NCBI GenBank assembly: GCA_020428405.1
Contig: JAGQMZ010000005.1
Span: forward strand, 1 to 36,014
Direction: 5' to 3'
Length of the DNA: 36,014 nucleotides
Source: Candidatus Saccharimonadota bacterium
Lineage (GTDB): Bacteria; Patescibacteriota; Saccharimonadia; Saccharimonadales; JAGQNJ01
Shown: positions 20,665-26,906 of the stretch, one piece after another
How positions within the stretch are numbered: the first letter of the stretch is position 1
Layout: the number at the start of each line of letters is the position of its first letter
Notes under the pieces: generated by a model
Seen by the model: the letters and a program-made list of their open reading frames with translations, nothing else
What the model was told of the DNA's origin: nothing
Databases searched by the model: none
Program-made: the position numbers and the translations under genes

Positions 20665-20739
20665 TGGGACGTCGCCAAGTGGTAAGGCACCGGGTTCTGG
20701 TCCCGGCATTCGGGGGTTCGAATCCCTCCGTCCCAGCCA
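20665..20739 (+). tRNA. tRNA-Gln (anticodon CTG)
   Basis: This is a complete 75-nt cloverleaf including an encoded CCA. The acceptor stem TGGGACG pairs with CGTCCCA, the D-arm contains GCCAAGTGGTAAGGC, the anticodon stem CCGGG/CCCGG encloses TTCTGGT (anticodon CTG), and the T-arm is GGGGG-TTCGAAT-CCCTC. The discriminator is G73, and a U1-A72 pair is typical of tRNA-Gln. Its 3' part is repeated near 26882, marking it as an integration site. Confidence 0.95.
20715..20739 (+). repeat. Left attachment-site repeat (3' end of tRNA-Gln)
   Basis: This is the last 25 nt of tRNA-Gln, from the T-loop through CCA. It recurs at 26882-26906 with 23 of 25 matches in the same orientation. This is the usual footprint of tRNA-targeted integration. 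Confidence 0.7.
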
Positions 20740-21300: not shown

Positions 21301-21333
21301 TTAGTTGCAACAAGAAGCACAGTGGCCCTCCAA
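21301..21333 (+). repeat. Left 33-nt direct repeat of the copper module
   Basis: This stretch matches 24590-24622 at 30 of 33 positions in the same orientation. It lies 75-100 bp before the csoR promoter. The end TGGCCCTCC also occurs in the tRNA-like fragment at 20809-20817, so it may be an attachment core. Confidence 0.7.
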
Positions 21334-21399: not shown

Positions 21400-21429
21400 T
21401 TGCATGAATACCCCCCTTGGGTATATAGT
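21400..21429 (+). promoter_or_regulatory. csoR-copB promoter with CsoR-type operator in the spacer
   Basis: TTGCAT (21400-21405), 18-nt spacer, TATAGT (21424-21429). The spacer holds the inverted repeat ATACCC-N5-GGGTAT (21408-21424), the G/C-tract palindrome bound by CsoR/RcnR-family repressors. Binding there would block the polymerase directly. The csoR ATG at 21436 is 6 nt after the -10. Confidence 0.85.
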
Positions 21430-21435
21430 ATGTCT

Positions 21436-21717
21436 ATGATTCAAGATATTAAAAAACGCGCTACACATCGATCAAAGATTATTGAGGGACAGTTCAAGGG
21501 ACTGGTTAAAGCTATTGAAAACGAGGAATATTGCATAGATATTCTCACCCAAAGCTTGGCCATTCAGCAGTCCCTCCGTTCACTAAATAAACTCGTGCTG
21601 GAAAATCACATGAAGACCCACGTAAAAGAAGGTATGCGTGAAGGAGACGATAAGACTCAGCAGGAAATTATTGATGAGATGTTAAAGATTTATGACTTAA
21701 CCAACATACGAGGTTAA
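21436..21717 (+). CDS. csoR: CsoR/RcnR family metal-sensing repressor
   Basis: This is a 93-aa all-helical repressor (MIQDIKKRATHRSKIIEGQFKGLVKAIENEEYC). Metal ligands by alignment are Cys in EEYCID, His in LENHMK and, four residues later, His (KTHV) where classic copper CsoR proteins have a second Cys. The C-H-H set resembles RcnR-like or formaldehyde-type members more than Cu(I)-CsoR, although the gene leads a copper ATPase operon. Earlier starts at TTG 21400 and ATG 21430 would lie in or against the promoter; ATG 21436 fits a leaderless start. The copB start is 3 nt after its stop. Confidence 0.88.
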   Translation: MIQDIKKRATHRSKIIEGQFKGLVKAIENEEYCIDILTQSLAIQQSLRSLNKLVLENHMKTHVKEGMREGDDKTQQEIIDEMLKIYDLTNIRG

Positions 21718-21720
21718 GTC

Positions 21721-23730
21721 ATGGATCACCACGAACATCATAGTCACTCGAACCAAGGTGAGCACGATCACGACAAACATGCTGGCCATAGCCCAGACAT
21801 GTTCAAGCAGAAATTTTGGTTGTCATTCTTTTTAACACTCCCTGTTCTATACTTTTCACAGACCATACAAGATTTACTTGGATATAAAGCTATTACATTC
21901 AATGGTAGTGAGTACATACCAGCAATATTTGGTATCTTCATATTCTTCTATGGTGGCTTGGTATTTCTAAAGAGCGCCAAAACTGAGCTTGCATCGAGAA
22001 AACCCGGCATGATGACGCTTATATCGCTAGCAATTAGTGTCGCTTTTGTTTATAGCTCACTTATAACGCTAAACATAGTTGATGGCATGGACTTTTGGTG
22101 GGAGTTGGCCTCACTGGTCACTATTATGTTGCTCGGGCACTGGCTGGAGATGGCATCAGTCATGAATGCACAAGGGGCATTAAACGAGCTTGCAAAACTA
22201 CTTCCGGATGAGGCTGAGCGAATAATTAAAGATGGTACGGAAAAAGTAGCGGTTTCTGAGCTAGAGGTTGGCGACAGAGTGTTGGTTCGGCCAGGTGCTC
22301 AAATTCCTGTTGATGGAACTGTTATTAAGGGCGAGTCCAAGGTGAACGAGTCGATGCTCACCGGTGAGTCAAAGCCAGTCGATAAATCTAAAGATGATAA
22401 TTTGGCAGCTGGGACAGTCAACGGCAGCGGTTCATTAACTATGAAAGTAACGAAGGTCGGTAACGACACTGCTCTTGCAGGGATTATGCGACTTGTCTCT
22501 GACGCACAGTCCAGTAAGTCGAAGACACAGTTATTAGCAGATAAGGCAGCTGCTTACCTTTTCTACATTGCCCTAGGTGCCGCTTTTGTTACAGCAATTG
22601 GCTGGTCAGCTGCAGGAGAGTCAAGCGGTTATGTTTTAGAGCGAGTAGTGACTGTTCTCATAATAGCTTGCCCTCATGCACTTGGCTTGGCTATTCCGCT
22701 CGTTACTGCAATTTCAACCAGTAAAGCGGCTAGTGCAGGTGTCATAGTGCGTGAACGCAGCGCCCTTGAACTTTCTCGAAATGTGGACGTCGTGCTATTC
22801 GATAAAACCGGAACTTTAACAACTGGCGAACAAGGCGTTGTCGATATTATTACTGATAATGAAGAAGAATTGCTCGCTATTGCTGCTGGTATTGAAAACG
22901 ACTCAGAACACCCCATAGCTCGAGCAATAATTGCGAAAGCAGAAGACAAGAAAATTAAACCCAAGCTTGCTAAGAATTTCAGCGCACTCGAAGGCCGTGG
23001 TGCTAAGGCATCGATCGGTAAAGACACCTACTCAATTGGTGGGCCTCAGCTTCTCAAAGAAAAGAAAGTTTCTTTGAATAAAGATCTATTAACTGCAACG
23101 GAAAAGGCTCATAAAAACGGCCAAACTGTCGTGTATGTACTTAAGGAAAAAGAAGTCTTCGGGTCTATCATGATTACCGATATAATTCGACCTGAATCTA
23201 AATCAGCAGTTGCATTCTTGCAGAGTTCTGGCAAGAAAGTAGCCATTGTAACAGGAGATTCAGAAGGCGTCGCTAAGTGGGTTGCAAGCGAGTTGCACAT
23301 TGATGAGTATCACGCTGAGGTATTACCAGAAAATAAAGCTGCGGTTGTTAAGCAAATGCAGTCTGATGGATCAAAGGTTGCTTTTGTTGGCGATGGCGTA
23401 AACGACGCACCTGCACTTACGACTGCCGATGTTGGAATCGCCATAGGAGCAGGAACGGATGTGGCGATTGAGTCTGCTGGAATTGTGCTTGCCAGCAGTA
23501 ACCCGCAAGGAGTAGCCAAAATCATCAACCTATCGAAGGCTACGTATCGTAAAATGCAGCAGAACTTGGTCTGGGCAACAGGCTACAACGTCATTGCAAT
23601 ACCTCTTGCTGCTGGTGCTCTAGCTGGGGTTGGCTTTGTACTGTCGCCAGCTATTGGAGCAGTTTTAATGTCATTATCGACAATTATCGTTGCATTTAAT
23701 GCTCAATTACTAAGAACTAAGGAGGTGTGA
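21721..23730 (+). CDS. copB: Copper-translocating P1B-type ATPase (CPH type, CopB-like)
   Basis: This 669-aa pump exports copper (or silver) using ATP. The first 27 residues are His-rich (MDHHEHHSHSN and onward) in place of a CxxC HMA domain. The membrane ion site is CPH (Cys317-His319, in IIACPHALGLAIP), which defines the CopB-like P1B-3 class. The phosphorylation site is DKTGTLTTG (Asp361). SEHPIARAI and GDGVNDAPAL complete the nucleotide and hinge regions, and TGES (in MLTGESKPV) is the actuator. Length is normal. It is co-transcribed with csoR and the anchored protein that follows. Confidence 0.95.
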   Translation: MDHHEHHSHSNQGEHDHDKHAGHSPDMFKQKFWLSFFLTLPVLYFSQTIQDLLGYKAITFNGSEYIPAIFGIFIFFYGGLVFLKSAKTELASRKPGMMTLISLAISVAFVYSSLITLNIVDGMDFWWELASLVTIMLLGHWLEMASVMNAQGALNELAKLLPDEAERIIKDGTEKVAVSELEVGDRVLVRPGAQIPVDGTVIKGESKVNESMLTGESKPVDKSKDDNLAAGTVNGSGSLTMKVTKVGNDTALAGIMRLVSDAQSSKSKTQLLADKAAAYLFYIALGAAFVTAIGWSAAGESSGYVLERVVTVLIIACPHALGLAIPLVTAISTSKAASAGVIVRERSALELSRNVDVVLFDKTGTLTTGEQGVVDIITDNEEELLAIAAGIENDSEHPIARAIIAKAEDKKIKPKLAKNFSALEGRGAKASIGKDTYSIGGPQLLKEKKVSLNKDLLTATEKAHKNGQTVVYVLKEKEVFGSIMITDIIRPESKSAVAFLQSSGKKVAIVTGDSEGVAKWVASELHIDEYHAEVLPENKAAVVKQMQSDGSKVAFVGDGVNDAPALTTADVGIAIGAGTDVAIESAGIVLASSNPQGVAKIINLSKATYRKMQQNLVWATGYNVIAIPLAAGALAGVGFVLSPAIGAVLMSLSTIIVAFNAQLLRTKEV

Positions 23731-23731
23731 A

Positions 23732-24571
23732 ATGGAAAAGCAAGAAACTATGAAAGATGTACCTGAGAACGAAGTGGCATCAAAATCTAATAAGAAAAGC
23801 TGGTTCATTAAAGGTGGTATCGTCGCTCTGGCGCTATTACTCTTTAGTGGAGGGTACTATGGCTATCTTTACGCATCGACCCCATCGCATTTACGAAATC
23901 CTGAGTTTGAGCATTATCACTTCAGAACACAGATTATTGTTGATGGCACATCCGTTGACTTTTCAGAAGAAGAATTCCAACAAGATACTCCGGGTACATG
24001 TAGCGTTGAAGTAAGCGGTACACCTATAGACTTTCATGACAATACTGATCAGATGACGCACATCCATTGGGATGGCATAACTGGTGGTGAGTTTTTGAAA
24101 TATTATGGATGGAACTTTATTGGTGGTAGCGATGACAGTCTAGGACGCAGGCATGACGAAGGGTTTATGCGAATGCATAGCGTCGAGCGTTTCGGTAATT
24201 TATTGCCAGACATTTCCGAAGGCTCAAATTTCTATGTCTACACTGGCGACGCAGATGGCTATGAGCAAAAGAACTGGGATGACTTTCTAAGCCAGGATCT
24301 GGAAGTGTTTTTTGGTAAGAACAGTAGCTTGAGCAAGGACGAGCAAGCATCGTTACTAGAAAAGATATTCTTCCCTAAAGCATACGCACATGGTAGTGAA
24401 GTAGACGAGCACATAGTAGAAAGCGATAAAACCGAAGAAGAACTAACTCGCATCAATAATCTTATTGGTAACGTCGTAATCTTTGTTCAAGACACCGAGC
24501 CAACTGAGCAACAGATTCAAGAGCGATTCGCCAATCTAGTTCCACTTAGCGATAGTGTTTGTGGAGGTTAA
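23732..24571 (+). CDS. Unrecognised His-rich anchored extracytoplasmic protein of the copper operon
   Basis: No family recognised. The 279-aa protein has a charged cytoplasmic start, one transmembrane helix (about residues 24-48) and a large outside domain. The outside part has possible metal ligands: EHYH (His61, His63), His102, THIHW (His110, His112), His141, MRMH (Met146, Met148, His149), His220 and His227, plus two Cys (90 and 277) that could form a disulfide. Two similar blocks open with strand-rich HYHFRTQIIVDG and MTHIHWDGITGG. A very strong Shine-Dalgarno (AGGAGGTG) overlaps the copB stop, so it is the third gene of the operon. It could accept, buffer or oxidise copper released by CopB. 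That role is inferred from context. Confidence 0.75.
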   Translation: MEKQETMKDVPENEVASKSNKKSWFIKGGIVALALLLFSGGYYGYLYASTPSHLRNPEFEHYHFRTQIIVDGTSVDFSEEEFQQDTPGTCSVEVSGTPIDFHDNTDQMTHIHWDGITGGEFLKYYGWNFIGGSDDSLGRRHDEGFMRMHSVERFGNLLPDISEGSNFYVYTGDADGYEQKNWDDFLSQDLEVFFGKNSSLSKDEQASLLEKIFFPKAYAHGSEVDEHIVESDKTEEELTRINNLIGNVVIFVQDTEPTEQQIQERFANLVPLSDSVCGG

Positions 24572-24589
24572 GCAGTTTCTGTCTGTATT

Positions 24590-24622
24590 TTAGTTTCAAC
24601 AAGAAGTACGGTGGCCCTCCAA
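24590..24622 (+). repeat. Right 33-nt direct repeat of the copper module
   Basis: Partner of 21301-21333 with three mismatches. It begins 19 nt after the stop of the anchored protein, so the pair frames exactly the csoR-copB-anchored protein unit. Confidence 0.7.
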
Positions 24623-24647
24623 TTCAACTATGCAATAATTTCTCAAC

Positions 24648-25124
24648 TTAACTTATCTTGTCATCAAGCTTAGTCAGATGAATGAGCTTCCAAGCTAACG
24701 ACGATGAACTTGTTCTCCTCATCAGTTCCTGACTATTATTTTGAGACAGAACATTTAGACTACCTTCCCAAACTATAGTTCTATCTAATATCACAAGCTT
24801 TCTGTGTAAGTTCTTTGTAAAGATAACTTGTATTCCTAGTTCTAGTAGTGAAGATAGCGCGTGCTGGGCATCTATCTTCATGAAACCTTTATGTTCATTA
24901 GGATCTCTAGTATTAATTATTACCTTAACTCGGTTACTTTTTAGTTCAGTTAGTAATGGTAGTAATTTGGTTAGTCTTGTCTTTGTTATGAAGGGACTTT
25001 CAATGATTACTTCAGCTCTCACTTTCTTTAAGTCTTTAGTTAGTTTTTGGTAAAACTGGGTTTGGTCATATAAATCAGCATCTAGATAGGTGTTGTTGGT
25101 GAGTTTAGTGAGTAGGTCTAGCAT
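24648..25124 (-). CDS. PLD-superfamily nuclease-like protein (single HKD motif)
   Basis: This 158-aa protein has one phospholipase D motif: HRKLVILDRTIVWEGSLN, with His, Lys and Asp in place and the trailing GSLN. Before it comes EVIIESPFITKTRLTKLLPLL, the usual strand-helix lead. Single-HKD proteins of this kind dimerise and often act as nucleases or serve as C-terminal domains of helicases. ATG 25124 has a good Shine-Dalgarno (GAGGAG) lying inside the decayed gene tail upstream, whose stop (25118-25120) overlaps this start. It was therefore once the second gene of a coupled pair. A partial domain cut from a larger protein is the alternative. Confidence 0.75.
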   Translation of the reverse strand: MLDLLTKLTNNTYLDADLYDQTQFYQKLTKDLKKVRAEVIIESPFITKTRLTKLLPLLTELKSNRVKVIINTRDPNEHKGFMKIDAQHALSSLLELGIQVIFTKNLHRKLVILDRTIVWEGSLNVLSQNNSQELMRRTSSSSLAWKLIHLTKLDDKIS

Positions 25125-25260
25125 TGTGACTCCTCACTATCACTATTCATGATATCTTTAAGTTGTTGTATATCTATTTCATCTAAGTCTTCTTCACCAA
25201 GAAAAGTTCCATTAACGTACTTCCTCCCCAGCCAAACTTATTTTCAACTAATGCAATCAA
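25118..25260 (-). pseudogene. Decayed 3' gene tail, copy A
   Basis: On the minus strand the frame encodes KYVNGTFLGEEDLDEIDIQ and QLKDIMNSDSEESQC, then stop, but there is no start and a frameshift lies near 25220 (the part before reads ENKFGW in another frame). The same tail occurs at 26420-26560 with about 80 percent similarity. It overlaps the PLD gene start by 7 nt, a normal operon junction, so the lost gene was the PLD gene's partner. The identity of the parent gene is unknown. Confidence 0.6.
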
Positions 25261-26419: not shown

Positions 26420-26560
26420 TCATGGTACTTCACTATTCATCATATCTTTAAGTTGTTGGATAGCTATCTCATCCATCAACTCTTCATCTGAAAAAGTTTG
26501 ATTAACGTACTTGCCTCTCCAGCCAGTATTTTGAAGACAGTCTCAATCCTTTGTTTCAAA
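26420..26560 (-). pseudogene. Decayed 3' gene tail, copy B
   Basis: The minus-strand frame encodes NTGWRGKYVNQTFSDEELMD, then EIAIQQLKDMMNSEVP and a stop at 26420-26422. Upstream the frame breaks (a TGA, with the likely continuation RIETVFK in another frame). It is a paralogue of copy A at 25118-25260. No PLD gene follows this copy; the convergent fic gene ends 9 nt beyond its stop. Confidence 0.6.
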
Positions 26561-26881: not shown

Positions 26882-26906
26882 GGTTCGAATCCCTCCACCC
26901 CAGCCA
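26882..26906 (+). repeat. Right attachment-site repeat (tRNA 3' end copy)
   Basis: Matches 20715-20739 at 23 of 25 positions. The two changes turn the acceptor 3' strand CGTCCCA into CACCCCA, which would pair with TGGGGTG, a common tRNA-Gln acceptor. It ends in GCCA like the gene copy. No other tRNA parts precede it. Confidence 0.7.

Follow-up and report, generated by a model that had tools for sequence, protein, structure and literature searches.

A membrane-anchored protein encoded with a CsoR-type repressor and a P1B-3-type copper pump in a small Patescibacteria genome: a candidate extracytoplasmic copper acceptor

On balance, we favor the view that the protein encoded by the third gene of a csoR-copB operon in the window (the whole 36,014-nt stretch of DNA that we analyzed) is an extracytoplasmic copper acceptor or sink and the partner of a CsoR-controlled P1B-3 (CPH) pump. 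The window comes from a genome of 0.81 Mb whose closest named relatives are Saccharibacteria. Operons built on this logic are already known; in the libraries that we searched, the protein family is new.

Operon, operator and flanking repeats

An earlier note, made from the sequence alone, had placed the gene third in a csoR-copB operon, and the open reading frames together with Pfam and NCBIfam searches confirm this order. The first gene, csoR (21433-21717, + strand), encodes a CsoR/RcnR-family metal-sensing repressor (Pfam PF02583, Trns_repr_metal, E = 1.8e-20); its match to the NCBIfam RicR model (3.5e-15) falls under the cut-off of that model. Metal ligands of CsoR follow a C-H-C pattern, and the putative ligand positions here read C-H-H, not C-H-C. 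The csoR genes of loci L032-L050 likewise mostly carry C-H-H at these positions, yet CsoR-type boxes precede them. The second gene, copB (21721-23730, + strand), encodes a P1B-3-type copper ATPase of 669 residues (NCBIfam TIGR01511, E = 6e-179). Published P1B-3 motifs comprise CPH in TM6, GYN(X)4P in TM7, MSxST in TM8 and a His-rich N-terminus (PMC5552934), and all of them are present in CopB as ACPHALG, GYNVIAIP, MSLST and 9 His within the first 60 residues. The third gene (23732-24571, + strand; hereafter the window gene) is a frame of 279 codons running from the ATG at 23732 to the stop at 24569-24571. Since it starts 2 nt past the copB stop and its ribosome-binding site AGGAGGT (23720-23726, + strand), read directly from the sequence, lies within the end of copB, the two genes are almost certainly on one transcript.

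A perfect CsoR-type operator, ATACCCCCCTTGGGTAT (21408-21424), precedes the csoR start by 8 bp and abuts a TATAGT -10-like box. The pattern ATACCN6GGGTAT occurs as a single palindromic site in the 36 kb and was found 0 times in 100 shuffles. The operator agrees with the published CopX box of S. aureus, ATACCctggGTGGGTAT (PMC10233261). Of the orthologous loci scanned that carry csoR, most have an equivalent CsoR box at the start of this gene; L035 has none there.

The operon is bracketed by a 33-nt direct repeat (21301-21333 and 24590-24622, both + strand), the downstream copy being 91% identical to the upstream one. This element of about 30 nt, TAGTTGCAACAAGAAGTACGGTGGCCCTCCA, is found in only 5 of the 198 genomes of the order, and in two other genomes it lies downstream of equivalent operons. 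In addition, window positions 21677-25234 are 99.4% identical over 3.6 kb to a locus from another family (L037, on contig C92 of genome G087). The operon looks like a mobile cassette because of this near-identical block and because the bracketing repeat recurs beside equivalent operons; the block itself possibly reflects either recent transfer or misbinning, both genomes being fragmented many-contig drafts. Elsewhere, copies of TAGTTGCAACAAGAAGTACGGTGGCCCTCCA sit directly behind gene ends (G000:C10:237-262, L034:9760-9785 and L037:8972-8997), and the element resembles the recombination sites of gene cassettes. Two further repeats were noted in the region. A repeat of 83-86 nt occurs at 25140-25222 and 26430-26512 of the window and at L037:7191-7276 and L037:8360-8445; one copy borders the 3.6-kb block common to both loci and may have been where recombination took place. 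A second copy of the 3' end (20715-20739) of a tRNA-Gln gene (20665-20739) occurs 6.2 kb downstream at 26882-26906, with the operon in between, which resembles the ends of tRNA-integrated elements.

Conserved residues and predicted fold

The window gene encodes a protein of 279 aa that, judging from its reading frame, its orthologues and its AlphaFold model, is extracytoplasmic with a single anchor. DSSP analysis of the model places an N-terminal membrane helix at residues 21-49 (23792-23878, + strand), with a Lys-rich cytoplasmic side, followed by an outer part of about 230 residues (229 counted), in line with the single anchor and large outside domain that had been proposed. The absence of a recognized family was likewise borne out: neither the protein nor its profile matched Pfam, NCBIfam or PDB sequences, hmmscan against Pfam-A returned nothing up to an E of 10, and searches of viral contigs and, with the protein itself, of plasmids gave no match. 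We refer to its subfamily as T1 of an unnamed family.

Eight residues are invariant among 17 aligned orthologues. They are H61 and H63 of an HxH pair (23912-23920) in the first beta strand (59-70), C90 (23999-24001), H102 and D103 of an (H/D)FHD motif (24035-24040), H110 and H112 of a second HxH pair (24059-24067) in the second long strand (108-113), and C277 of a C-terminal CGG (24560-24562), all encoded on the + strand. In a broader set of 42 homologues, H110 is retained in 42/42 and C90 in at least 90%. C90 and C277 are the only two Cys of the protein, and it contains no CxxC; their invariance supports the possible disulfide of the earlier note, in which they would be the putative partners. 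The description of the protein as His-rich, with several HxH and MxMxH sites, did not hold up. Composition is only weakly His-enriched (10 His in the 229 outer residues), there are two HxH (61-63 and 110-112, vs 0.39 expected by composition, p ~0.05), MxMxH is absent, and the one MRMH (146-149) is not conserved among orthologues. The case for a putative His site is thus one of conservation, composition alone being insufficient.

The first half of the window protein aligns with a family of anchored Saccharibacteria proteins of about 210 residues, here T2 (hhalign, 97.8%; 98.5% with a deeper alignment). A T2 profile of 34 members has exactly five invariant columns, all of them His; four of the five are kept in the window protein and the fifth is D100. 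AlphaFold models were confident for both the window protein (pLDDT 87.7, pTM 0.82) and T2 (pLDDT 89.9). In the window model, H61 and H63 lie on strand 59-70, and H110 and H112 on strand 108-113. Residues i and i+2 of a strand point to the same side, and from the model we infer a metal-site geometry in which the members of each HxH pair would do so. The window model matched no PDB fold. The best fold matches of the T2 model were haptocorrin (prob 0.93, E = 0.043), intrinsic factor, transcobalamin and 3u7z, none of them significant; the last, annotated as a putative metal-binding protein, gave a TM score of 0.55-0.60 by target length. A search of viral structures with the T2 model was not informative. 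PF14478 (DUF4430) did not match the window protein and reached E = 0.19 for one haloarchaeal relative, and a haloarchaeal relative has a match to ThiS, which is also a beta-grasp family. According to a fold review, the main yield of a literature search on DUF4430, one clade of the beta-grasp consists of binders of ligands or metals (PMC1949818); neither copper nor histidine is mentioned in that review. From the models, a beta-grasp belonging to this clade is thus a good guess, not a result.

Linkage to copper pumps and the wider family

One-protein and profile searches detected orthologues of the window gene in 15 of the order's 198 genomes, as well as in other classes and families of Patescibacteria. 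To assess without bias the proposed partnership with CPH-type ATPases, all 198 genomes were scanned for a CPHALG DNA pattern as a proxy for the pump. The pattern was present in 14/15 genomes bearing the gene and in 38/183 without it (Fisher p = 2.1e-8, an optimistic value given that related genomes are not independent), and 13 of 16 gene copies lie at most 9 kb from a CPH pump site. The shorter paralogue family showed no enrichment in the same test (CPH pump site in 10/42), a contrast that speaks against an artefact of sampling. The tie of the window gene to copper export is therefore statistically strong. We also looked for a match to a known non-metal family and for a co-occurrence unrelated to copB, the outcomes named beforehand as counting against a copper role, and saw neither.

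Genes next to the orthologues encode CsoR, CopB, CopM/DUF305, F510_1955, DUF3105, a plastocyanin-type cupredoxin, CDF exporters and DsbA-like proteins; one representative per type was tested by Pfam or NCBIfam and the rest were assigned by sequence inspection. Some copies (L045, L095 and L096) are remote from a recognized pump or copper gene. One genome harbors two divergent orthologues (L097:4936-5724 and L098:4865-5782) that have lost most conserved His. The F510_1955 BNR-repeat protein (NF045728, named glycosylhydrolase) is a frequent neighbor of the copper gene, at L032:3802-4677, for which the assignment was tested, and as equivalents in L034, L036, L041, L042, L043, L050 and L051. Its annotated function as a glycosylhydrolase looks doubtful.

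T2 members have matches among proteins encoded on plasmids of Actinomycetota and haloarchaea, and more relatives were found from one such protein. A profile of seven bacterial distant relatives aligned with T2 over the whole domain (98.4%). Compared directly with the actinobacterial profile, the window subfamily gave a weak match (hhalign, 5.5%) in which the same motifs are aligned; for this reason, the link from the window subfamily to the distant family runs through T2. The actinobacterial members are without the Cys pair. Loci of distant relatives were chosen from the match list before their neighbors were known, and several proved to be metal loci. In Curtobacterium, a CsoR box occupies the intergenic stretch directly before the gene, and the order is heavy-metal P-ATPase, HMA protein, [gene], metal-sensitive regulator, DUF305 and multicopper oxidase. 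Similarly, the order is DUF305, P-ATPase, DUF305 and [gene] in Pimelobacter, and merR, P-ATPase and [gene] in Streptomyces and Mycobacteroides, the Mycobacteroides copy being broken by a stop. In Pseudarthrobacter, the gene follows merA and merB. No metal-gene neighbors were found for the Haloarcula, Polaromonas and Anoxybacillus relatives. The pumps beside distant relatives are of CPC or CSC type.

Coupling to CPH pumps thus stands for the orthologues, whereas the wider family is not exclusive to them, its members also accompanying CPC or CSC pumps, mercury genes and ATP-synthase genes. A link of the entire family to copper pumps, considered earlier, was rejected in view of the 10/42 of the Saccharibacteria T2 branch, several copies of which lie beside ATP-synthase genes. 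Specifically, T2 genes adjoin the gene for the ATP synthase a-subunit in many Saccharibacteria, at L052, L058, L063, L066, L067, L069 and L070. On an Anoxybacillus plasmid (L133:5354-7390), the family match falls inside a stretch annotated as the integral membrane protein SkfF, which is part of the sporulation killing factor system. A literature search on the motif returned nothing relevant. Overall, profile comparisons place the window protein in a broad, unnamed and apparently metal-associated family. As a wider and more tentative proposal, this might be a family of extracytoplasmic metal proteins, spread over Patescibacteria, Actinomycetota, Proteobacteria and haloarchaea, that carries a conserved multi-His copper site on a transcobalamin-like beta-grasp, an undescribed use of this fold, with one Patescibacteria branch as the dedicated partner of CPH pumps.

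Proposed role, alternatives and related systems

In the mechanism that we propose, excess metal, most likely copper, would lift CsoR off its operator, and csoR, copB and the window gene would be induced as a single unit. Copper would be exported by CopB. The window protein, anchored by its one N-terminal helix with the folded domain outside, would bind the metal at a surface site formed by the two HxH pairs on neighboring strands and the HD loop, the C90-C277 disulfide holding the domain together. Such binding would prevent copper from re-entering the cell and from contacting thiols of surface proteins, as is thought for CopL beside CopX/CopB. The new extracytoplasmic copper acceptor of the earlier note therefore keeps its support from CsoR control, the conserved outer His site and the coupling to CPH pumps; that the His bind metal, that this metal is copper, that the Cys are bonded and that the protein acts as a sink or acceptor rather than in catalysis is what we infer. 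Copper is preferred over another metal on the basis of pump type, CsoR box and copper neighbors. Some caution is due, as the C-H-H ligands of CsoR leave room for a metal other than copper. The proposed role is also weighed down by the weak His enrichment, the loss of most His in L097 and L098, the copies remote from a recognized pump or copper gene, and the mercury and ATP-synthase neighbors of the wider family.

The alternative that survives best, which we nevertheless consider unlikely, is a role in redox protection: together with DsbA-like thioredoxins, the disulfide and the metal site would prevent or repair the oxidation that copper drives in thiols outside the cytoplasm, in the manner of ScsC-type copper-tolerance isomerases, so that copper binding would serve redox chemistry, not storage. 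Indeed, four Patescibacteria genomes encode fusions of the domain with a DsbA-like thioredoxin, assigned through Pfam in L100 and L103 and by reading the sequence in L115 and L120. A DsbA-like gene also adjoins the orthologues at L035/L094 and L099, and one lies within a gene or two at L044, L046, L047 and L048, where it was assigned by sequence inspection only. The two invariant Cys fit this picture, and Cu(I) binding is documented for the DsbA-like copper-tolerance protein ScsC (PMC8900818). The window operon, however, contains no thioredoxin, C90 and C277 are distant in sequence and form no CxxC, and the actinobacterial members do without them.

It is quite improbable that the protein is a metalloenzyme working with copper or another metal (e.g. 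a Cu(I) oxidase or a hydrolase), with HxH, HD and HxH as its active site. The strictly conserved H/D set does lie in one region of beta-sheet, and one relative is co-located with a multicopper oxidase gene, but we found neither a sequence match to an enzyme, cupredoxin or multicopper-oxidase family nor a convincing match to an enzyme fold, and in S. aureus the equivalent niche is filled by a recognizable multicopper oxidase encoded in the copBmco operon (PMC5947656). There is similarly little reason to expect an adaptor or sensor whose outer domain would report exported metal, or regulate the assembly or activity of CopB, without storing metal; although the ribosome-binding site inside copB, the single anchor and the near-obligatory CPH linkage of the orthologues are compatible with such a role, the protein has no recognized signaling domain, and its relatives are found beside unrelated CPC or CSC pumps or with no pump. 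Identity as a multicopper oxidase or cupredoxin was rejected for want of any Pfam or NCBIfam match, and the oxidase function once suggested for the protein finds no support, no other enzyme signature having been detected.

Under the acceptor or sink reading, an unannotated family of several bacterial phyla and probably haloarchaea would gain a concrete role in copper handling, with named residues. Genomes below 1 Mb that have lost most pathways would then carry, and probably exchange, copper-defense operons with a dedicated surface protein, and the DsbA fusions would tie copper export to extracytoplasmic thiol chemistry.

Among known systems, CopM (DUF305) and cupredoxins are extracytoplasmic copper proteins encoded next to orthologues, with no sequence match to the window protein. 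ScsC-type proteins are copper-linked thiol-disulfide proteins and recall those relatives fused to a DsbA-like domain, but the window protein has no thioredoxin domain. The beta domain of transcobalamin and intrinsic factor and the DUF4430-like beta-grasp (SLBB) provide the best fold matches of T2, at E values that are not significant and with no match in sequence. Another is the unnamed HxH...HTHD...IHIE family of Actinomycetota, Proteobacteria and, by tblastn, haloarchaea: the chain of profiles (98.4% and 98.5%) points to the same domain, and its proteins share the HxH, HxHD and H motifs, are anchored or exported and repeatedly lie beside metal pumps or regulators. It differs in having no Cys pair, in its CPC or CSC pumps and in the weakness of the direct match (5.5%).

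The known functional parallel is CopL, a surface lipoprotein of tandem DUF1541 domains that is thought to bind copper and belongs to the CsoR-regulated copXL/copBL of S. aureus (PMC5947656, PMC8546587). Both systems combine CsoR control, an operon with a P1B-3 ATPase (CPH, His-rich N-terminus) and a membrane-attached extracytoplasmic partner, and the copXL locus spreads horizontally (PMC5947656, PMC10233261), as the window operon seems to. In contrast to CopL, the window protein has no DUF1541 (hmmscan, E up to 10) and no lipobox, its Cys being far from the N-terminus, and is anchored by a helix instead of a lipid; CopL has been modeled with clusters of Met and His, whereas the window protein has a putative His/Asp site. 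By analogy, the window protein may act like CopL, yet it is not CopL, and a similar task may be carried out on an apparently unrelated scaffold.
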